A stretch of 64,000 nucleotides of DNA from Bugula neritina (lineage: Eukaryota > Bryozoa > Gymnolaemata > Cheilostomatida > Bugulidae). The DNA is taken from NCBI GenBank assembly GCA_964035545.1, contig OZ037766.1:5805722-5869721 (forward strand). Direction: 5' to 3'. Below the pieces are notes generated by a model. It made no database searches. It had not been told where the DNA came from and saw only the letters and a list, made by a program, of their open reading frames with translations. The stretch's first letter is position 1. Every line of letters begins with the position of its first letter. Below, in pieces: positions 9,301 to 43,260 of this stretch. Made by a program: the position numbers and the translations under genes.

Positions 9301-12114
9301 ATTATGATGCAGTGATTAAATGCATACTTTAAGAAGCATATCATATTTTTTGTAGGTGAAGTAAGATTTGTTGGTCTACTAGATGAAAATGTTATAGCTC
9401 CAACGGTGTACGTAGGAGTGAAGTGTGATGAGAACTGTAAGTAAACTCTATTGTTACATGGTAGCTTTCTAGACACGATGTATATACGTGTTGACATTGA
9501 ACACTGAATACATAAGCATCTCAAGATGAAAGGTAGAATAACACTAATTCTAAAGAAACTTTATAAAAAAATTGACCGACAATGAAATTAAGCAATCACA
9601 TTCTAAGCCAAACCAAAGATTAAAAACTCAAGCTAAAAAATTTACATGTTAAGACAAAAGCATGCGTTGACTGAAGCAGTGATAGCAGGTGACCTTGTGC
9701 ATAGTTTGACAATCTTCAGGGCATGAGGACAAATTTTTAGGCTTGAAGCATTTGTTAAAACTAAATCGCTTCTTGTATAAAAAATCTTCAAGCCTGCTTA
9801 TTATTCATGTGGATATATAGCGAACAAATGAAGAAAACTGAGTATTTATATGACAAAACTATAAAAACGAAAGCCAGTACCAAAGGATATTTACATATTG
9901 TTGACACTCATTGTGTAATAATTTCTAGTGGGTTCCACACATAATGGGGTTATGAATGGCAAACGTTACTTTCATTGCCCAAGAGGCCATGCTGCCCTAG
10001 TTCCTTATACGGATGTGAGACGGCTGAATCCTGCAGAAGTAAGACCTCCACTCACGGGGAACTTCATGTTTGACAGCTACTATGATGTAGTCAAAACTCG
10101 AGCTTTGAGAAGGCAGAAAATGGAGTAAGTAATCAACTGTAGACATAATCAATTTGAAAGAAATTTTCTCAACTGCAGTTATTGTTTAATATATTTATGT
10201 TTAGCTAGAAGTTGTTAATTGGAGCATGATTTTGTAGAGCAAGCGAAGAAGCAACTAGACCAAAACCGGTAAAACCACCATCACGAATACGAAAAACTTA
10301 CACTGTTTCGGATGAGAATGACGTAGCATATAAAGTATGTAGTTCTCCCATCTAGATTTATTGTATAAATTTAAATATGCAAATGCGAAAATTATGAAAA
10401 TAATAACACAAAATGCTACTCACTAATAATTGATATACATGTATAGTTCTAGTCACTATTTTGGCTAGTCTACAGATTGATATGACATGATTATATCCGA
10501 TTTTTTGCTATCAAAACATGTAATTTCAGTCCAGAAACTAGTTTATGTCACAAAATACATTGCAGGACATGATAAAAAAGCTGACAAAAGAGGTATATTT
10601 CTCCTTTCTTGTTTTATGTTGTCACATTTTATTTATCTGTTTGCTTCAATATAAGTACTAGTAGTTGTAAATGGACTTTAGAACTATATAATTAACTACA
10701 AATGACTGTTACTTTCAAGAATTAAACAAAAATTGTATTCTTATCTAGAGATCCAACGCCTGTAGTTATTTGCTGAATATGAAAATGATCTACAGTTTAG
10801 TTAAGAAAGTAGACAATATTTATTGTTGCTAAAATTACATTCAATCATTTTCAGACAAATTCCTCGACACACCTGTTTTAATTCTGCCAGGTTGAAATTG
10901 TACAAATAGTTACAATTGTTATATTAAATTCTTAATGGAACCAGGTGCATAATGCAAATTTTAGCATCTGTCAACTTTAACTTAATATCAACCCCACAGA
11001 GATATTCACTGCTTCATTTTAAACTATTGGCGCTACAATTCACTAGATGTTATAACTATAATTATACTTTCTTTTTTCTTCATTCCCTGCTAACATATTT
11101 TATGATTCACCATAAATAAGTTTTGTATGTTTGATCAAACTTTTAATAACGTTTATTCTTTCTTATTTCACCTAACTAATTATGTTTTGTGATGAACCCA
11201 GACATTGCTTACTCCACCTTTTACCTTACCTACAACCAATTATATGTTTATTATTAAACTGATAAGCAGCTGAAGAAACATATTATGTGAACAACTTGAG
11301 TTGGACGCTTAAACACACCAGAAACTTGATGTGTACAGCAAGCATTGAATATTTTCTGATCACTGCCAATTTATAGCAGAGGACTGAATGCTGTTATGTT
11401 GATAATACCACTAATAATTAGTTTCTCACTTTAAACCAGGATTCGCAGAGAGAAGGAGGCACCCAAGTGTATCACTATGCTAACAGTACTGTCAAGGTGA
11501 GAACAGGTGGGCCTCCGAAGGCAAAGGTTGATCCTCAGGCTAGGAGATTTGTTAAATGGAAGGAAGAATTTGGGGGTGGAGAAAAAGGAGATAGATTAGT
11601 TAAAACCCTCAAAAAACTACACGAAGGTAAATGATTATATAATATCTTTATATACTAAGTCAAATTAGAATTTCTGCAACTTTAACAGAAATAACTTATT
11701 TTTTTTGTTTATTAGTAAATAAAAACAAAGTACTACATTGATCAAGAAAACTACAAAATTTACAGCAAATAATTTATCTCCGAGTTTACATTTACACCAA
11801 TTGATAGAAAATGTGATCTTTAAAGTTGATGTACTTTAAAAAACCATATTCACTAACAGGGCTAATTTCACCTAAAGATATTAGTAGAACTATATGTTTA
11901 TTGTCTGTTAGCATTAAACAAAGGAAAGGAGTTGGAGAATGAAGAAACTGAGGAAGAGGAAGAACTATCAGATGAATATGACGAGGATCAATTAACCGAC
12001 AGACCGCCTACACAACATAGCAGTAAATCTCCCACTAGAGTAGGGGACACTTCCACTTCGCAACCTTCTAGACAGCCTAGCCCAATGAAGAGTGTGCAGG
12101 GGAACCCTGGTTAA
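6333..12114 (+). CDS. CAP-Gly domain protein, about 396 aa
   Basis: Nine exons chain in phase: 6333-6410, 6808-6930 (or ending 6909), 8642-8840, 9356-9436, 9929-10124, 10238-10334, 10566-10592 (27-nt microexon, tentative), 11440-11626 and 11912-12114 (TAA). The N-terminal 115 residues contain a small cysteine cluster, FDCTCGPC (about 75-82). A CAP-Gly fold follows at about residues 118-190, with VGDRVIVNG, TGEVRFVGLL, TVYVGVKCDENLG and NGKRYF. CAP-Gly domains bind the C-terminal EEY/F tails of tubulin, EB and CLIP proteins. The usual GKNDG groove is replaced here by GSTHNG. The C-terminus has basic and proline-rich stretches, then an acidic tract (EETEEEEELSDEYDEDQ) and a Ser/Pro-rich tail, probably disordered. 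An X-box lies upstream. I do not recognise a specific orthologue; a centrosomal or ciliary microtubule protein is the best guess. The least certain points are the exon 2 donor and the microexon. Confidence 0.85.
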
Positions 12115-31717: not shown

Positions 31718-34700
31718 ATGGCTAGCGCAAGTAAGCGATTAAACGAGAAATTAGCAAAGTATAACCACATCTATGACGAAGAAGATCAGAGTAAAGAGCA
31801 GCCAGAAGATAAACCCACATCGAATGGAGATGCTGAACCAACGGAGCCAGCTGCCTCTAGTAACTCAAATGAAAACAACAATGTAAATGAACCAGAGAGG
31901 GTACCGGTTAAAAAAATAATGGAAAATGTAAGTGTGCGTGTAAATGGCAGTGCATCGGGTGAAGAAAGCATGCATAAAGGTTCTAATGGCGTTGGTGACG
32001 GTGTGGTAACAAAATCTAGTAACCCCGCAAACCGTGCTGCCATGTCTGATCATGTAAGTTTTGCTACTTCCAAATACATAAGTTTTTAGGTTTTTTCTCT
32101 TTGTTGGTTTCCCTTTTCTGTTCAGTGCTGCTGGTGGTGTTGTGGTGTGGGTTGGCTCCGTCTTGTCTTTTGCTCTGTCTGACTGTAAACTTTGTCTCAG
32201 GATGAATATATTCTGTCTGAAAACATTCTGCATTGATTTGGGATATACTGTAGGTAGTTCAGTAACAAGTTATCTAGTATGTTGCTGTATACATCTAACA
32301 AAGTTTTACTGTACATAGTACAGCATAGAGCAATGCAAAGTAGGCCACCTATTGCTCGAGTATTTAATACTTTAATATACCAGGTTTTAGCAGCGTTGGA
32401 AAATTTCACGTTCTGAATTTTTCAAGACTGAGTTTCTAGTTTTCTGATACAGAAATCATAGTTCCCAGTCCGTTAACTCTTACCTTAATTGCAGTTTGGA
32501 ACAAATCTCATTTTTCAAATGAATACATTCAGATGGGTGAGACTAGATGGAGCATTATGGATTTATTAAACATAACTTGCAGTTGGTTCTATTCCATTAG
32601 CAAAGGTTGCTATTGCAGCTGCACACTGACAGTATACTTACTGCAAGCTACTGTATCTACCAAATTAACCTTTCTATACATGTTACTCAGTTAGCCAAGG
32701 TTTGGGTTTGAGTGAAAAATAAAAGAAATGACTGCCAAATCAATACTATAGTAGAACTCATTAATATTTATCAGTTTTGATTTCAAAGCTGTTTGCTGAC
32801 ACCATCAGATTTCCTGTCTATTAGATTTATGTGTTGTAACTTTTCCATGAGGGTTATCTAGAGATGTTTAGTTATAGTTGGAGGGGTGAATAATTCTCCT
32901 GGCACTCAAATCATCACTCAAAACAGCTGCCTTTTCTTATCATAGGGTTTATTTTTAAGTTTATTGGCAGTAACTCAATAATTTGCTCATTATAATGGGT
33001 ACCTATCAATCAACTTATTTCCACAAACTTTTACACGAAGGAGTATGGAAAGCCCCTTAGTTTTTGAGAGCTTGTTTATTCTAGTTGTACTCAAAACAGC
33101 AATCTAACATACAAGTTTCCTAGATAGACTGGCATTTTAGTACAACAACTAAATTACTCACAAATTGTGTAATTGATTATTTGAATAGGCTGTTTAATCA
33201 CTTTGTTGCCATAGTAACACCCAAATAGACATCGTGATTTTATGAAAGAATGCCTAATCAGGTTGACACTTCAAAACTCAACAATATGGTAATAAATAAT
33301 TGAACCTTTGTAGAAAGTCAGGCTACAGTAAGTTTTATGCAAATATTAGAAAACTCCAGAATTGTACCTGGCAAAAGCAATCTTCTATTGAATTGCTTGG
33401 AGCATTCAGCATTTACTAGCAACCAGCAATTTCTTCTACTAATTGAACTACTCCTGCACTATACCAGAGCTTCCTAACAGCTAGCCCAGCAGATAACATT
33501 TTTTTAACAGCTACGCTAAGCTTGATTAACACGCAGGGGCTCCTTAGTGGTCACATCCAAATTGAATTAATTAGTTGGATTGCCATTAATTATCCAATTG
33601 ACATTTCACTTCTCTTTCCAGATACTGTACATTTAGGCCTTATTTACACTATGCTACTCATTTCTCACTAGCATTGGTGTTGACTTACTATTTCATTTGA
33701 TTCTACCCATTCAGAAAAAAACTTGACAGAAATTTAAAGCTCAATTTCTCACTGGAGAGCCTGTCTTGTTCACAGAGTAATTAGTGTTGGTGTTTTGCTT
33801 CGCTAGTTTGAGTTGTTAGGATTTTGTGTAAAATACCACAGCAGCGCAACCAGTGTTGTTATTACCAGGTGACAGTTCAGTAATATTTTGGGGCAAGTAA
33901 ATGATATGTAATGAATTTCTCACCCTTCACTTCTCACTATCATAACATATGTGTTGCCTATACAAACACTCTGTGGTTGGTGAAGACCCTCCCAGCTGCC
34001 TAATCAGATAGGACTAGATTAACCTTGCTGCCGCAGTGAGTAGAGCCACATCTCAGTAAGAGTACTGCTAGTAGTTGTATAGCAGTGAAGTTCTGCTCCA
34101 TGATGACAGGTTCTGTCAGTTGTTTGGAGAGATGCCATTTCCGTCACACGTATGATCTGATTCATCTAAAGTCTAAACCAACGCAGATATTCAGATTCAT
34201 GAGTGTTTTAAAATCCCTTTTGAAAATATCTAACTTCCTGTTGCATAACTCATTCCGTTTCAGCAACTCTTGGAATTGCATGGTTGGCTGGAAATAAGAC
34301 TGACTGTGGGTTTATAATGTAGATAAACAAGAGAGAAGCTTTTCTGAAAGGTGGAGACGCACCAGCTGGCAAGTTTGAAGCTCCATCTACAAAATTTGAC
34401 ATCTCTCTCAGAGAGCGAGATGGAAAAGCAGAGAAAATAGAGAAGCCAGCCTCGTTTCTACACAAACCTGCAGCAGGTGCAGCTGGCTCAGGTGATGGAG
34501 GTCACAAGCCTGTGTCCCGCTCAGATTCCTCCAAGTCCCTGGCTGGGTATGTCGGCTTTGCTAACCTCCCCAACCAAGTCTACAGAAAATCGGTGAAAAG
34601 AGGCTTTGAATTCACTCTGATGTTTGCAGGCAAGTCTTTTACTTCTCTATCACCCACAGCTGTGTGCCCAGAGCAGTAACACCAATGACCTCTAAACTGT

Positions 34701-37700
34701 TGCACCTTCAAAATGACTTATAATCACTGGTAACTAATACTTAACTCTGACTTTGTGACTCTAAGCTGCTTCAACTCTACGGAAAAGCTATAAATTATCA
34801 CTTAATGTGGACATAATGCATTTTTTATTAAGTTAAGACAAATCTTTGTCTAAGAAAGTTGCAACCTTGGCTAATTTTTAGAGCCGAGAATAAATATGAT
34901 TGATGTTTGTCACAGAAAAGCTGTAGTCTGCAAAGACAACTAGGTTGTTTTCTAAGTTAATCTCACATCTCCCTTTGCCTGCACCACGTAGTCACTGGCC
35001 TATCTTTTTGTAAAATAATTGGAATACTTTCAGTACAACTCCAAACTCTGCCGCTCTTTCTCTTAATCTCCTATTTAACAGTCATTGCTCTTTCCAGCCC
35101 ACCTCTTTCTAACTCGCCTCTTTTAAGCTCAGCTCTTTCTAGCTCAGCTCCCTCTGGCACAACTTTTTCTGGCATAAATGCTAGCACTTCAGTTTGAAAT
35201 TCACATCTAGCCATCTTGGGGTGTTACCAAAAAGTTGTCTTGGTTAAGAAAATGTGAGAGTGTAAGATTATGTAGTCTACTCCTATCTAGCTATAACTCT
35301 CTGTATAACATTAACTCATGTGAGAAATTGTCTTCTCTGTTCTTTCCAATATTCTTTTTATATTTAGAAGTGGATTTGTAGATCAGAGAATCTCAATAAC
35401 TCGTTTTAAAGAATAAATAGAAATGGGAACATTGAGTGCCTTTCAGTACTTATCAGGATTTCTACTACCCTCTGTATTCCAAAGGTCATCCTTTCTACTC
35501 GCACAGGATGAAGCTATAAAGACAGCCTGTTGCCTGGTCCTCCAAGACCACACCATTACCTAATGAATGCACTTACTTATTCTATCAACAAATTAGCACT
35601 CAATTTCATTCCTTTTCATCCTATTCAATCGGCTGCTTTCATCAAACTCACTTGAAGAGTGAATGTGTCCATTCATTCACACTTTCCGATATTAAACTCA
35701 TTCATGGAGCTTGTACTACACATTGTCAGCCTCTGTTACTATTATTAATCACAGTGTTTACTTGCAACAATTTGTGAGAAGGTTGTTGTGTTTTAATCTC
35801 CCTCAGCAAGCTTTGAGCATCCATATATTTCTCCCCAGCCCCTTGAATGTAGAAGTTCAATCAGCTTTGTGGCTTTCTTTAAATAAATTATAATGCAGTT
35901 TTCTATTGCAAAGTTCACCCTAGTCCTGTGACACACTTCGTGTACTGAAATAGTAAAAACTTCTCATATCACTCATAGTTCTGATAGAGGAAGTATGTGA
36001 GAGATGGCTGGTCACACCCTGGTAATGGGATTAGCGTACCATTAATTTCATGATATTATGCTTGTAGCACTTCATGTTAACATTCTACAAGTATTTCCTC
36101 TGAATGGTGACAGCGTACTACAAATACACCTGCCAGCATGTGCAGTGCTTGTAGCACACACAAAATTTATAAAGAAAACTAAAGAACTTAGGCTATAGAT
36201 ACACTTCTACTCCCACCTAGGGTGTAGGTGGAATGAAATGTCATATAACCCAGTCAACCAGAGTAAATGGTGTACACATTTCATTCAGTTTTCATTCCAA
36301 TTCATTTGTGAGATAATTATAATTGACAACTTTCAACAGAAGAGCTTGTCTTTTAGACACATCAAAATCACTATTGCCTTTTCTCACTATATGCAGACCA
36401 TTACTATACATCCTGTAATCAAGTGTGGTGTGGTACTTGTAAATTAGACTGAGTGTGTTTGATTGCAGGTGAATCTGGACTCGGTAAATCTACGATGATA
36501 AACTCTCTCTTCCTCTCTGAGCTCTACAATGACCAGCACCCTGGGCCTTCTCATAGGGCACGGAAAACAGTACATGTGAGTATGACAGAAATATATTGTA
36601 TTTATATTATATTATAGCAGTATATTTGATCTTTGTATTATAGTATTGTATTATATTATAACTGTATGTTATATCTTGTATTATATTATACCAGTTTATT
36701 ATATATTATTATATGATAGCAGTATATTATATTATGTTATAGAAGCATATAATACTTTACCTGGAGAATCAGTATAATTATTCTGGCATCTACTTGCCAG
36801 TATCTGAAATCTAAATATCCTCATCTGTTTAGTTTATTCAGTCTGCCACAATAGCATCAAAGTTCAAGTTTTCAGTTCTCTGAACACAACGACAGTGCAG
36901 CAGTTGCTGGATCTACCAACTCTCTCACCTCCAGTCTTGTTTAGATTGTGTTGGTAGTTGGTGGATCTGCCAGCAACTTTGACCTCTTCAGATGTGTTGA
37001 TGAACTGTACTTTTAGCTCTCTATCAGCTCCATGTCCTTGCAAGCAATGTTACTTTTGTAAATTCTACTTTTTCTATCTCTCCATTACTAGTAAAATTTG
37101 CTTCATTTCTAATGTTGTGAGATGCATCTTCAAAGTATGTCTAGTAAGATTGAAAACATGTTCAATCAAATACATTGATGGTGTTTTTTTTCATTCTTAG
37201 CATGTTTTTTCCGACATACTACAGTCCTTCTACTGGAACTGTATCTTTGTTGCTTTTTTCTCCTGTAGGCCACAGTCTACTGACACTCTATGTATGTTAG
37301 GTTTATGTTGTATTGCTGTGATAGTACTTCAGTTTAGAGTATATCTTATGTAGATAAATTCTTCCCAAGTGTTGCTAAAAGAAGGTGGTGTGCAGCTGAA
37401 GCTCACTGTGGTTGACACGCCAGGATTTGGAGATGAAGTGAACAACACAAACTGGTGAGATTTTTAACCTGTAAATTTTGCAGAGTCCTAACCCTTATCA
37501 AGGTTGTGGCCCATCAATTGTTTCAAGTTGAAAACAAAAACAGAATTGAACACTAATCCTACAAGACCTTGGTAGCCTTCTGTGGTGGTATATACAGTTT
37601 CAATTTTCAACTTTTAGTAAATGACTGCATGTATAAAATTTAAAGTAATTCAGATTTGTCTGAAGGTACCTGCAGGTTTTTGAACAAGTTGTAGCATTCA

Positions 37701-40700
37701 ACACTCCCTGGTGGTTTTCAATACCAGTGTGTTTTACCAGGAGATACAACTCCAACATGAGAAGTAAAGTAGCGCCATAGCTGTAGAGTGTAGACTGTAC
37801 TGTACTGTTGTGTTATATATACAGCTGGCAGCACCTTGTACTGTACTGTTGTGTTACATGTACAGCTGACAGCACCTTGTACTGTACTGTTGTGTTATAT
37901 ATACAGCTGGCAGCACATTGTACTGTATTGTTGTGTTATATGTACAGCTGGCAGCCCATTGTACTGTACTGTTGTGTTATATATACAGCTGGCAGCCCAT
38001 TGTACTGTACTGTACTGTTGTGTTATATATACAGCTGGCAGCACCTTGTACTGTATTGTTGTGTTATATGTACAGCTGGCAGCACCTTATACTGTTGTGT
38101 TATATGTACAGCTGGCAGCCACTCACCTCCTATGTGGATAACAAGTATGAAGAGTATCTCAACTCAGAGTCAAAGGTGAACAGGAAGACTATGCTTGATG
38201 ACAACAGAGTACACTGCTGCCTCTATTTCATATCACCTACAGGACACAGGTGAGTGTTGAGTATGATCACCTACAGGACACAGGTGAGTGTTGAGTATGA
38301 TCACCTACAGGGCACAGGTGAGTGTTGAGTATGATCACCTACAGGACACAGGTGAGTGTTGAGTATGATCACCTACAGGGCACAGGTGAGTGTTGAGTAT
38401 GATCACCTACAGGACACAGGTGAGTGTTGAGTATGATCACCTACAGGACACAGGTGAGGGATAATCACGGTGATTAAAGACCGAGTGTGATAAAATAGTA
38501 TTAGTTATATACTGAGTGATTGATAGTACCAGTGACTGACTGAATGATGAATAGTATCAGTGATTGAGTCAAAGTGGGTGATTGATTTCAGATGTGTTAG
38601 TCAACAGAAGGTGGTGTTTGATTGACAGATGGTGGTAGAGTGATTTCAGAGTAGGTTGGAGTACTATTTTCTACCTATTAATATGCACTTATTTCAGAAA
38701 TGAATGTTGATGGTAGGTGTTTATGGTGGCAAGGAATAAATATATACTGTAGCACACTGCAAACACTCTATTATGCTAATATAAACAGTTCGTGCAGTTA
38801 CTGCATATTGTAAATTATCCAATTTTGGATTTCCTCTCAACAACCAACAGTCAAAGTATTTAGTTCTGTATAAGAACTGTGGACTGAGTGACAGATGTAC
38901 ACAATGAAGCATAAATATTCCAAATTGGAAGTCACGACCTCAGTTTTCACATTCAAATTATTGCCAAGTCACTAGTGACTAAAGTTGTAGTAATTATAAT
39001 GATTTATGAATTCTGTTTGTATTATTAAAGTTGTACATGCTGTGACATTGTAGTCTGAAGCCACTAGACATTGAAGTGATGAAAAGGCTACACGATAAAG
39101 TGAATATCATTCCTCTCATAGCCAAGGCTGATTCGCTGACGCCAGAAGAATGCAGAGATTTCAAGAAGAATGTGAGTTTTCAGATAATTAGACACTCAAT
39201 GGTGCTGACTATATGGCAGGTTCTGCTTGGTTTCCAGAGAAAAACATGTGGCATCACTTGCCAATCTCCTGAAATGTTTTTGTTATGAACACTTAGTTGC
39301 TGCCTGCTATACATGTGGGAAGCAGCCAGTCATGCTGTGTGCAGTATGTGTGGAGTTGTGTCAAATGTCATAACATGTCTATTGTGTCATGATAACATTA
39401 TATCTATTGTGTTAAACACTCAGATGAGGTTACAAAGAGCTCTTTGATATTGCTGCCGCTCAGAGCAGCATGTACTAAAATTCACAACAGAATTGTGTCC
39501 TCTCTTACTAAGTTTTGTGGGTGCTTCTCCGATGTTGGTGGATGTTGCCTGGTTTCTAGTCCCTTCCACTGTTAGCCTAAAAATATTGTAACCCTCCCCT
39601 CCCTCCATCCATCACCAATTCGACTGAGAAGGTCTCTGCTGTGTGATCTGATGTAAACTTAGTCCTGCAGAGTTATTTTGTCCCAAAGTTCTGGTTGTGT
39701 GAATAAGACTGGAATTTGGACTCACCAGTATCACTCCTATCTAAGTTTAGGGTTGACGTAGTAACTCTTTTGTGAGTGAAGTAGTATCTATGGTCTACTG
39801 CAGGAAACTGGGCACAGGAAAAATGAAACTCAAGCTAATGTCGCAGTTCCTTCACATTTATTGCAATACATAAATAATAAACCATTTGAAACAGAATTAT
39901 GGACCACCAGGCATATTTTTTACCGGAACTTTGCAATGCCACTTAATTAGCAGGTAGCCAAATGAGTCTGCCCTTCCCTTGTCCCGCCCCTTCTTACGTG
40001 GTTTTTCATGACAGACCACTTAATAACTCCTTCACCTGATAACTAAGATTTTGCTGCTACATAGAAATGTCTTATTCTCCACCTCCCCTTAGTGTGGGGT
40101 CTACCACCTTAATATAATTGTCAGCAAGTAGCTCATCAAGTAACTTGTTTACACTGAGATATCACTGTTAGTATGCATTTAATTTTAGGGTTTCTTCTGT
40201 TTCTTTTTAAATTTATACATTTCCTGCCTTCTAGTTCCAGTATATGGGGGATAACTCCATATATTCAGTTATATTGGTATTTTAATTCCTCTGGTGTTCT
40301 AATTCCTCCCTAAAACAGGAACTAAAATCCTTACATTGCTGAACAATAAATACAATCTTTTTTGTAGATTCTAAATGAGATTCAGAGAAACAACATAAAA
40401 ATCTATGAATTCCCAGATGTTGATGACGTGGAGGAGAACAAGGAACTGAAGAAGTTGAAGGTTGGTGACTAAATAGAATATATCTAACTCAGTCTTAGTG
40501 TGACATTGACATCTTCAATCTTATACTTTGTTATCAACACTTCAATAGTCATGCCAGGGAGGAAAATTACTAACTTGTTGACCAAATAAGCTTTTTTCTT
40601 ATTCTTAATTTAGTAAATCGTGTTATTTTTCTATATGTTAAATAGACTTTCTTACTTCTAAAAGCATATTTATTCTTGCAATCTGCCGAACAACATGCCA

Positions 40701-43260
40701 TTTCTCATGCACAGGATGTGAGCTAGCTAAGCTTTGTATGTAGGTTGACCGCATTTATTGTAAACATTGAATCATTTTCAAATCTGAGTCATTGTTGATT
40801 TGACACAATTTACATAAGATTAACAGTTGCACAGCTGAACTGATTCAAACTCAATGCTAATTAATGCATTTCTTGATTGCATGGTTTATAGTGGTATTGT
40901 ATTCGACATATTTTCGTAAATGTGAGTAGGGAACTATTTTACGTTTGCATTTCCTTCGTTTGAAGACTGTCAAATAATGACTCTTTCCATCGGAAAGGAA
41001 TCACTGGAATTGCAATAAATTACAATGAACACAATAATCATCAATCTTCATCAATAACTCGTTCCAAATATGCTACTGTATGGTAATTTTGAATATTATT
41101 AACTCATAGTAATTGGTCATTGGTGTGGGATATCCACAATGAGCACCTGGAGTTAGTGTTTGCGTTGTGCTCTGGCTAGTTTGGTAGATATTCCTGGCTG
41201 AAAGAATTTTACACGATTTTGCTTCTGGTTACCAAAATATGTTTCCTTTCCAGTGGAATGTGACAGAGTATGACTGCTCAGGTGAAGGGTGGTGTGTAGG
41301 AATATAAGAGTAACATAAGAATACTTTAGCTATAAACTATAGAGTGCTCAGTAGCCAAGAGAAACTACTAATAGTCATGTATTTGTAGGATCGTGTGCCA
41401 TTTGCTGTGGTCGGTAGCAATCACGTGCTAGACATCAATGGCAAGAAAGTGCGAGGCAGGCAGTATCCTTGGGGCACTGTAGACGTAGACAACTTGGTGC
41501 ACAATGACTTCTTGGCATTGAGAGATATGCTCATAAGGTGAGTTAGTCAAGGTGACTCTTTGTTTACAGTCTTACAAACTGTTTCAAGTTTTCTGTAGTG
41601 TATTCAGAGTTATCTTCTCTGGTGCTTTTTATAAATATGTAAGCTGATTTCAGTTGTTAACTTATCAATTCTAATATTTTTAAAAAGATAAAATAAATAA
41701 AATGAATATTTTTTGTTGTTTTATGTTTGGGAAATATTATTCATATTGAAACGCTTTGTTGGTGTGTGAAGTGATGCTGTAGTTTTCTATTTGTAGGACA
41801 CACATGCAAGATTTGAAGGACGTTACCAACAATGTGCATTACGAGAATTTCAGATATAAAAAGTTAGCCGATGTATCGACTACTGACAGTGTCGGTGAAA
41901 GTGATAGGTTAGCTACGTCTAAGTGTTACTAGCTTATGTGTGCGTCATCGTATCAACATTGTATTGCCACATGGATACAGTGTATAGTACTATTATTGTA
42001 ATGTTGCTCCACTCATTGTAGTGATCCTCTCACACAAATGGAGATGCAGAAGAACGAACACAGACAGAAAATGAAGAAAATGGAGGCTGAAATGGAACAA
42101 GTTTTTGAAATGAAAGTAAAAGAGAAAATGCAGAAGTTGACAGATTCTGAAGCAGATGTGAGTTTGAAGATGTTTTAAAAATATATTATACAGTTGAGCA
42201 TTCTATCGAGATTAAACTATAAGTAACACGTGATAAACAGTTTAGCATTGCATCAAGATTCAACTATAAATATTTAATGTGTTGTGTGCAATAGCTGGCC
42301 AAGAGAGCTGAACAAATGAAGAAAGGTCTGGAGCAGCAGAAGGCAGAATTAAATGAGAAGCGACGCTTGTTTGAGCAGGAAAAAGCTGCCTGGGAAAGTC
42401 AGTTTAAAGGTGCAGAACTCGACCAAATGTAAGTGGCAGGCAGCATTGCAATCAGCTGACCTCTGATAATTTCTCAGAAACAATAGTTTGTTCTTTGTCA
42501 CTAAGTTAAGACAAAAATTTCCTTGGGTTAGCTGTTGAAAAATTTAAAATAAAAAAATTTGAAGCTATAAAATAAACAGCAACTAAATCAAAAATAAAAT
42601 TTAGTTTTTTATACAAATGAAACAGTATTTTCTGTGAATATATAATCTCTAGCCAGTAGGTTAAGTTTCTACAATTTTTCAATACACACAGGACTAGTAA
42701 GTCATGTCAAGGATAGGCTAATAAATCGAATGACTGTATTTTGGGGTTGTCTACTCACTTTGAAACACACCAACCTAATGTTTCTTATCTGTCAAATGTA
42801 TATATTGATAACGGACTACTTAGATGACCAGTTTATAGCTCTGTGCGGTGTGCACCCAAACACAGCTGTTTACCATTTGCCCTTCATTAAATGTGTTTGC
42901 TGATATTCACTCATATCTGTCATGAAATGTGGATTTAGAGAGTCGTGGATAGTCGATAATAAGCATGAATATTTGTCTTCATGATTTACATAGATTTAGT
43001 CATTAACAGTCGATATGATTTTAACTCTGGTAAAATTTCCTCCGGTAAAACAATGTAAAATTAAGGGGATAAAAACACATCCGCATTCGACTATCAACTT
43101 TGCTGCTTATAAATTTTACATTTTGTTCTGTTTCACTACTTCGATTAAAACCTCGTTAGAAATTTACCTGAGTTTCAATGTTGAAGAGAACTATTTTTAG
43201 CAAAAAACCTATTTTTTTTGCAGGGCAATGAAGGGAAAGAAAAAAGGATTATTCAACTGA
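31718..43260 (+). CDS. SEPTIN7: septin, SEPT7 group, complete, about 588 aa
   Basis: Twelve exons are all in phase: 31718-32053, 34323-34629, 36469-36575, 37354-37454, 38112-38249, 39054-39171, 40368-40460, 41389-41537, 41797-41907, 42022-42157, 42295-42428 and 43224-43260 (TGA). Septin-7 occupies an obligatory position in the septin hetero-oligomers that form filaments at membranes and the cytokinetic ring. Landmarks in order: disordered N-terminus (1-185), [11 protein letters not shown] (187), polybasic RKSVKR (about 200), P-loop GESGLGKST (215-223), DTPGFGD (271), AKAD (353-356), septin unique element [26 protein letters not shown], and a C-terminal coiled coil ([19 protein letters not shown]) ending GKKKGLFN. 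The N-terminus is much longer than the roughly 45 residues before the GTPase domain in human SEPT7. The intron after 34629 is GC-AG. Exon 38112-38249 is flanked by minisatellites made from its own splice sites. Confidence 0.96.
34630..36468 (+). other. GC-AG intron in the septin gene
   Basis: The donor reads CAG|GCAAGT and the acceptor GATTGCAG|GTGAA. The splice must fall here, because it restores the P-loop codon G|GT and the sequence [11 protein letters not shown]. The donor otherwise matches the full consensus, as is typical of GC donors. Confidence 0.9.
36592..36745. repeat. TATTATA-rich simple repeat
   Basis: Degenerate TATTATATTATA runs with interspersed TAGCAGTATA, inside a septin intron. 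Confidence 0.75.
37797..38120 (+). repeat. 41-bp minisatellite carrying the septin exon's 3' splice site
   Basis: Seven upstream copies plus the functional copy repeat a unit centred on TTATATRTACAG|CTGGCAGC. The ACAG starts at 37821, 37862, 37903, 37944, 37985, 38031, 38072 and 38108 (spacing 41, 41, 41, 41, 46, 41, 36). The last copy opens the exon at 38112, chosen because it alone continues into the conserved septin sequence [16 protein letters not shown]. The repeated part includes intron sequence, the AG and the first 8-11 exon bases. All three forward frames stay open over long stretches of the array. Confidence 0.95.
38233..38465 (+). repeat. 34-bp minisatellite carrying the septin exon's 5' splice site
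   Basis: The exon end and donor, CTACAGGACACAG|GTGAGT, recur at an exact 34-bp period. Donor GT positions are 38250, 38284, 38318, 38352, 38386, 38420 and 38454. Copies differ only at a GGACAC/GGGCAC position and in the last unit (GTGAGG). The first copy is the one required by homology (…SPTGH, then [12 protein letters not shown] in the next exon). Each unit contains about 17 exon-derived and 17 intron-derived bases. Confidence 0.95.

Follow-up and report, generated by a model that had tools for sequence, protein, structure and literature searches.

Minisatellites carrying splice sites on both sides of a septin exon in Bugula neritina, and similar repeats at many other exon ends

Introduction

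Minisatellite-like duplications of intron/exon boundaries, at the 5' or the 3' side, have been described in amphioxus under the name of mirages (PMC3087553, PMC3902484). According to the cited portions of these reports, many mirage units contain AG/GT signals, mirages are present in Adh3, troponin C, the globins BflGb6 and BflGb9, and PGBD5, and regular splicing is reportedly undisturbed, with variable length (PMC3087553, PMC3902484). Instability in somatic cells and array edges that evade homogenisation also count among the mirage traits. Boundary repeats in human have been considered as a possible source of new introns (PMC2812944, cited portion), and the idea of intron gain by tandem duplication is credited to Rogers in the relevant part of PMC3087553. 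The relevant part of another report on intron gain (PMC2809761) held nothing decisive for the arrays described here.

The DNA stretch studied here (the window, 64 kb) corresponds to C2:5805722-5869721 of a 215.8-Mb genome in 295 contigs. It contains a septin gene with one exon placed between two minisatellites. As in the amphioxus mirages, the units of the septin arrays span the intron/exon boundary, and here the 5' and 3' boundaries are both affected, in one exon. An earlier note on this DNA had considered such a structure undescribed; as a kind it is preceded by the amphioxus mirages (PMC3087553, PMC3902484) and the human boundary repeats (PMC2812944), as far as the cited portions of these reports go. 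The septin structure illustrates a known peculiarity in a striking way but is not unique, similar repeats being found at many exon ends.

Results

Septin gene and the bracketed exon

Joining the 11 recognised exons gave one open septin frame, in which the exon bracketed by the arrays is the fourth (Table 1). The gene model comprises recognised exons only, with a provisional 5' limit and no start codon found. A 182-residue part of the joined frame matched Pfam Septin with E=8.6e-73, and the best match by sequence among solved structures (PDB) was to chains named Septin-7 (2qag_C, E=1.7e-149). The open frame and these two matches, together with the array anatomy given below, support the earlier description of the exon core as single-copy, conserved septin sequence. 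The exon is in phase 2 at entry and at exit. Inspection of positions 34620-34640 showed GCAAGT directly after CAG, so that the intron following the first recognised exon appears to be a GC-AG intron.

Table 1. Features of the septin locus (positions in the window) and loci of the donor arrays whose starts were examined
Feature	Position or loci	Strand	Basis or remark
Septin-7-like gene	34323 to 43260	+	11 recognised exons
First recognised septin exon	34323..34629	+	reading frame and junctions; donor GCAAGT
Septin exon with GTPase P-loop GESGLGKST	36469..36575	+	frame, Pfam Septin
Septin exon	37354..37454	+	frame; following exon entered in phase 2
Left minisatellite, 41 bp, 8 acceptor copies	37796..38119	+	TRF
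Putative branch-point-like A (CTTAT, -23), in the last left unit (the functional one)	38089	+	weak motif
Septin exon bracketed by both arrays	38112..38249	+	frame, Pfam Septin, Septin-7 match
Right minisatellite, 34 bp, 7 donor copies	38232..38458	+	TRF
Septin exon after right array	39054..39171	+	frame
Last septin exons	40368-40460, 41389-41537, 41797-41907, 42022-42157, 42295-42428, 43224-43260 (stop)	+	frame
CAG arrays at exon donor, C1	L003, L005, L015, L019, L020, L023, L027, L029, L030, L072, L073, L074		by eye
AAG arrays at exon donor	L050, L051, L053, L055, L056, L058, L059, L060, L065, L066, L067, L069, L070, L071		by eye
AAG arrays within 60 nt of donor	L063, L068		by eye
AAG arrays with no exon seen	L052, L054, L057, L061, L062, L064		by eye

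Structure of the two arrays

The left array was found by TRF to have 7.9 copies with 88% matches (score 477), and the right array 6.7 copies with 97% matches (score 440). These were the top two scores of the 37 TRF rows for the 64-kb window, the third (140) belonging to an AT dinucleotide run. In the left unit, the end of the intron (e.g. TATATATACAG) is joined to the initial 8 nt of the exon (CTGGCAGC); in the right unit, the final 18 nt of the exon are followed by the initial 16 nt of the intron. Acceptor copies (first base past AG) were located at 37825, 37866, 37907, 37948, 37989, 38035, 38076 and 38112, and donor copies (last exon base) at 38249, 38283, 38317, 38351, 38385, 38419 and 38453. 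Copies 1-6 of the right array read CAG/GTGAGT and copy 7 reads CAG/GTGAGG. The TRF result and the copy positions confirm the earlier account of a septin exon between two arrays that carry its own 3' and 5' splice sites; the right array is real, but the end given for it, 38465, was 7 bases too far. At the array edges, the final left unit is 36 bp long and divergent and the final right copy has GTGAGG, while the middle units are alike. The likeness between left and right units did not exceed chance, as a score equally high was reached in 132 cases when the left unit was shuffled 300 times, and the two can be regarded as unrelated, as had been proposed.

By their coordinates, the introns are longer than the arrays, with 341 nt preceding the left array and 595 nt following the right one. 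The arrays were therefore ruled out as newly gained introns, because both host introns reach well past them.

Since tandem arrays are notoriously difficult to assemble, the structure might in principle be an assembly artefact. This was judged very unlikely: the left units are not identical to one another (88% matches; spacings of 41, 46 and 36), both arrays are shorter than 330 bp within a 33.6-Mb contig, and structures of the same kind were observed at dozens of places.

Consequences of the extra splice sites

All six downstream donors lead to AGG TGA, an immediate in-frame stop. Five of the seven upstream acceptors also lead to a stop, and the remaining two (38076 and 37989) keep the frame, lengthening the exon by 36 and 123 nt, respectively. 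Normal septin thus requires the first donor, because every later donor gives a stop, and septin of normal length requires the last acceptor, because these two upstream acceptors would extend the exon in frame. The reading frames suggest that the exon-proximal sites, i.e. the last acceptor and the first donor, are used faithfully. Among equal donors, the intron-proximal one tends to win according to the classical rule. SRSF1 is dealt with in part of PMC5585400.

The functional acceptor is preceded by a weak branch-like motif (Table 1), which is only a hint; the sole further yTnAy no more than 45 nt away from any acceptor was CTGAC, 38 nt before the third acceptor. RNA folding was unremarkable in three array stretches, with z values of -0.14, +1.41 and +1.78. 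The candidate explanation that RNA structure hides the extra sites was rejected, because none of these three stretches and two flanks was notable when folded.

It was also considered whether selection maintains the additional splice sites for tuning or buffering the splicing of septin and other genes, a role that the earlier note had put forward in part. An ABCA7 study is said to have found an intronic VNTR affecting splicing, which was counted for this reading. The donor copies are a perfect consensus in that six of seven read CAG/GTGAGT, a yTnAy branch-like motif within 30 nt was present at the functional acceptor only, and in C. elegans a minisatellite is enriched close to regions of alternative splicing (part of PMC4039745). 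However, any extra donor would truncate septin, unit lengths follow no frame rule, the RNA fold is not unusual, and the cited portions of the amphioxus reports describe mirages as reportedly free of aberrant mRNA. The likeness of the copies could be explained by array homogenisation alone. No evidence for buffering or tuning was obtained here, the folding of the three array stretches included, and we consider selection improbable.

Tandem donor words in the genome

When the septin stretch was used as a DNA query, it retrieved itself and one 70% match, L002 (C3:18.93 Mb). A single extra match is by itself no proof of rarity, because the search skips common words. The match at L002 (1381-1760) was an unrelated, independent array, with its first unit at the donor CAACAG/GTTAGT on the minus strand of the locus, in a gene that we take to be a mitochondrial release factor.

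The 216-Mb genome was then scanned for donor words followed by themselves 15-45 nt later, with the reversed words as control. CAGGTGAGT gave 864 tandem pairs in 3,979 occurrences and its reverse 15 in 860, the 15 pairs falling in 5 arrays; AAGGTAAGT gave 556 in 3,101 and its reverse 12 in 2,537. Per occurrence, the tandem excess over the reversed words was 12-fold for CAGGTGAGT and 38-fold for AAGGTAAGT, the reversed words being imperfectly matched (third-order Markov expectations of 1,594 vs 607 and 1,849 vs 2,471). The two donor words together made 1,420 pairs genome-wide, for which no p-value is given because pairs inside the same array depend on each other. The 12-38-fold excess is not readily accounted for by random placement. 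The GT-less variant CAGCTGAGT gave 89 pairs and its reverse 0. Some CAGCTGAGT arrays look like decayed donor arrays or seem to carry the donor word on the opposite strand.

For the acceptor-like word TTTTACAGG, 19 pairs in 3,186 occurrences were counted (reversed, 2 in 1,890), and for TATTTGTAG, counted as pairs only, 117 (reversed, 3). These values are only suggestive of rarer amplification at acceptors than at donors, because acceptor-like words are poor acceptor markers and because L040 (see below) showed acceptor-reaching arrays and no donor-holding ones. The weaker excess of the two acceptor-like words led us to set aside, at the same suggestive level, the possibility that acceptor arrays are as frequent as donor arrays.

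Donor arrays and coding exons

The starts of 36 arrays were checked, with exons judged by eye from open frames, not by database search: 14 CAG arrays, which are all those on C1, and the 22 AAG arrays listed for C1 and C2. It was found that 26 arrays start at the donor of a coding exon and that another 2 are no more than 60 nt away from such a donor, whereas in 8 no sense exon was seen in the stretch examined (Table 1). The CAG arrays start at the 3' end of a sense coding frame in 12 of 14 cases, with short open frames at L003, L030 and L074; no exon was seen at L032, and the array at L011 begins at the donor of an opposite-strand gene. At L011 the donor word is antisense to the gene, whose own donor AAG/GTAATA likewise opens the array. 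For C2, where five CAG arrays were listed, two were examined: L075 lies at an exon donor, and none was seen at L076. Among the AAG arrays, 14/22 start at a coding-exon donor (at L055 one unit upstream of the first exact word), 2/22 lie within 60 nt and 6/22 showed no exon. Judging by likeness, the array-bearing genes presumably include kynureninase, TRRAP, trehalase, arginyl-tRNA synthetase, myosin, PUF60 and patched.

Extrapolation by length from the 14 CAG (C1) and 22 AAG (C1 and C2) arrays gave about 85 and 70 arrays genome-wide, and arrays account for ∼3% of the occurrences of these donor words outside pairs, which is an estimate, not a count. If arrays are present at a few percent of donors and at a lower percentage of acceptors, some exons among very many should, on this estimate, have both.

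Geometry and young stages

Array geometry was determined for 28 donor arrays (septin, L002 and 26 others with a clear first unit; L074, L011, two adjacent arrays and arrays without an exon were left out), with manually chosen periods and with values restricted to the range in which the donor word is still contained. The period was 20 to 52 bp, and the detectable exon part was 1 to 29 nt, with a median of 11. The position of the junction within the unit was uniform (KS p=0.57), and periods divisible by 3 were found in 10/28, against 1/3 by chance, i.e. there was no reading-frame rule. These results point to duplications whose ends fall at random about the donor and which give no hint of a coding role, because the junction position is uniform and the periods obey no triplet rule. 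The earlier wording that the amplifications are anchored exactly on the junction was thus too strong. A spliceosome-like footprint (20-28 nt of exon and 10-12 nt of intron), suggested by the first AAG arrays, was contradicted by the 28-array measurements.

The units were locus-specific in these 28 arrays, each copying its own exon end. A GTRAGT...AG pattern is common to many loci, as would be expected if introner-like or other mobile elements had deposited the arrays. Units that differ between loci argue against this origin, since introners would leave near-identical copies at many loci, and the septin query, in a search that skips common words, gave only one 70% match, to an independent array. 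Deposition by mobile elements is hardly credible.

A perfect two-copy duplication of 91 bp, consisting of 58 nt of exon and 33 nt of intron, was observed at L033 (8130-8314), in a gene presumed to be patched-like, and a two-copy 34-bp duplication at L053. These perfect or near-perfect two-copy cases look like first steps of array formation.

Background minisatellites and location along contigs

Fifteen random 10-kb segments were analysed by TRF (period of at least 12, score of at least 100, entropy of at least 1.75). They contained 14 arrays, two of which were coding zinc-finger-like repeats. Among the 12 noncoding arrays, a junction was clearly included in 2 (L033, and L040 at 9331-9411) and an acceptor was abutted in 1 (L040, 8429-8598); no junction was seen in the remaining nine, whose surrounding genes were partly worked out. 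Junctions are hence not the sole sites of arrays, because only 2 of the 12 noncoding arrays clearly hold one. Under the entropy cut, the array at L040 7369-7448 showed acceptor-like copies at its ends. The region L040 6500-9500, 0.83 Mb from the C3 start, lies in a gene that we take to be BAZ1-like and has minisatellites in several short introns; in two or three cases the array extends as far as the acceptor. L048 and L049, segments picked near contig ends, contained eleven more arrays. At L049 502-1180, in a presumably xylosyltransferase-like gene, a 22-bp array of about 31 copies makes up nearly the whole intron, and the splice sites are not copied. So intronic minisatellites are frequent in some regions, and those that span a junction form a subset.

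On C1, 18 of 23 donor arrays lie no more than 5.5 Mb from an end (p=4e-6, with the cut chosen post hoc and donor density uncontrolled), and on C2 the same holds for 10 of the 13 listed AAG arrays, as counted by eye. The septin arrays are 5.8 Mb from the C2 start. Human minisatellites are known to cluster near telomeres.

Discussion

The septin arrays are best explained, with a probability of roughly 0.78, as junction-spanning minisatellites that arose by recurrent tandem duplications at exon ends and are excised with the intron. A short tandem duplication of tens of bp that straddled the junction, ending in the exon on one side and in the intron on the other, would copy the splice site into the intron. 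Copy number would then rise to 7-8 by unequal exchange or slippage, the copies staying alike, and the exon-proximal copy would still be used, so that splicing takes the array out together with the intron and its presence is largely without effect. At the septin exon, the same process would have acted independently on each side, and the case would be one of many such events here, apparently commoner at donors and towards contig ends. We infer the duplication and expansion mechanism, the faithful use of exon-proximal sites and the neutrality of the arrays. Points that count against this explanation are the two upstream acceptors that keep the frame, the 8 of 36 arrays and L076 with no sense exon seen, and the many noncoding arrays of the random segments in which no junction was visible.

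Alternatively, a mutational process aimed at functional donors, for instance one coupled to transcription or splicing, might have left the arrays as its trace. Donor words are tandem 12-38 times oftener per occurrence than reversed words, acceptor-like words are less tandem (TTTTACAGG, 19/3,186; TATTTGTAG, 117 pairs), and 26 of 36 donor arrays begin at coding exons. Nevertheless, no footprint was detected, as the junction can occupy any place in the unit (KS p=0.57). The reversed words also occur outside genes and are imperfectly matched in expected frequency, and the excess may partly reflect introns of array-rich regions. Many arrays in L040, L045, L046 and L049 have no visible junction, the GT-less CAGCTGAGT still gave 89 pairs, and 6/22 AAG arrays have no exon, which implies that the word itself may matter besides its function. 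We are doubtful of such targeting. As for the splice-junction mutational process proposed in the earlier note, the genome-wide tandem excess of donor words supports it, but exact anchoring is unsupported.

The wider proposal that donor-biased duplication is ongoing at functional junctions, that arrays occupy perhaps 3% of the strong 5' splice sites (a rough extrapolation from two donor words and two contigs), and that the spliceosome always picks the exon-proximal one among 2 to about 30 near-identical sites is offered tentatively, and we would sooner bet against it than for it. New features may be the abundance of such arrays across the genome, their bias to donors and their concentration near contig ends; no prior genome-wide survey of donor-biased junction arrays was found in the open-licence literature. 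Extrapolating from the two donor words, this genome probably contains more than 100 natural experiments, each with a series of near-identical donors behind one exon end. Spliceosome choice among equal sites could be tested here, as could junction minisatellite duplication as a feed for intron growth and gain.

Zhuo and co-workers reportedly described human introns from tandem arrays in 2007, judging by the title. Intron gain by tandem duplication of AG/GT segments has the same starting event as the septin arrays; in septin, however, existing introns were enlarged and no new intron is shown. The human segmental duplications with minisatellites of about 30-bp units at exon-intron boundaries (PMC2812944) resemble the septin arrays, although the cited portion of that report concerns recent paralogs, with half of the variable repeats within coding exons. 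For the amphioxus mirages, splicing and length variation have been reported, whereas the septin arrays are known from the sequence of one assembly. In the cited portions of the amphioxus reports, globin mirage units are about 150-160 bp and those of Adh3 10-72 bp, compared with 34 and 41 bp here, and the two boundary types of the globins occur in different genes, whereas here both ends of one septin exon are affected. The septin arrays also differ from the described amphioxus cases in their setting, a genome in which two donor words make 1,420 tandem pairs.
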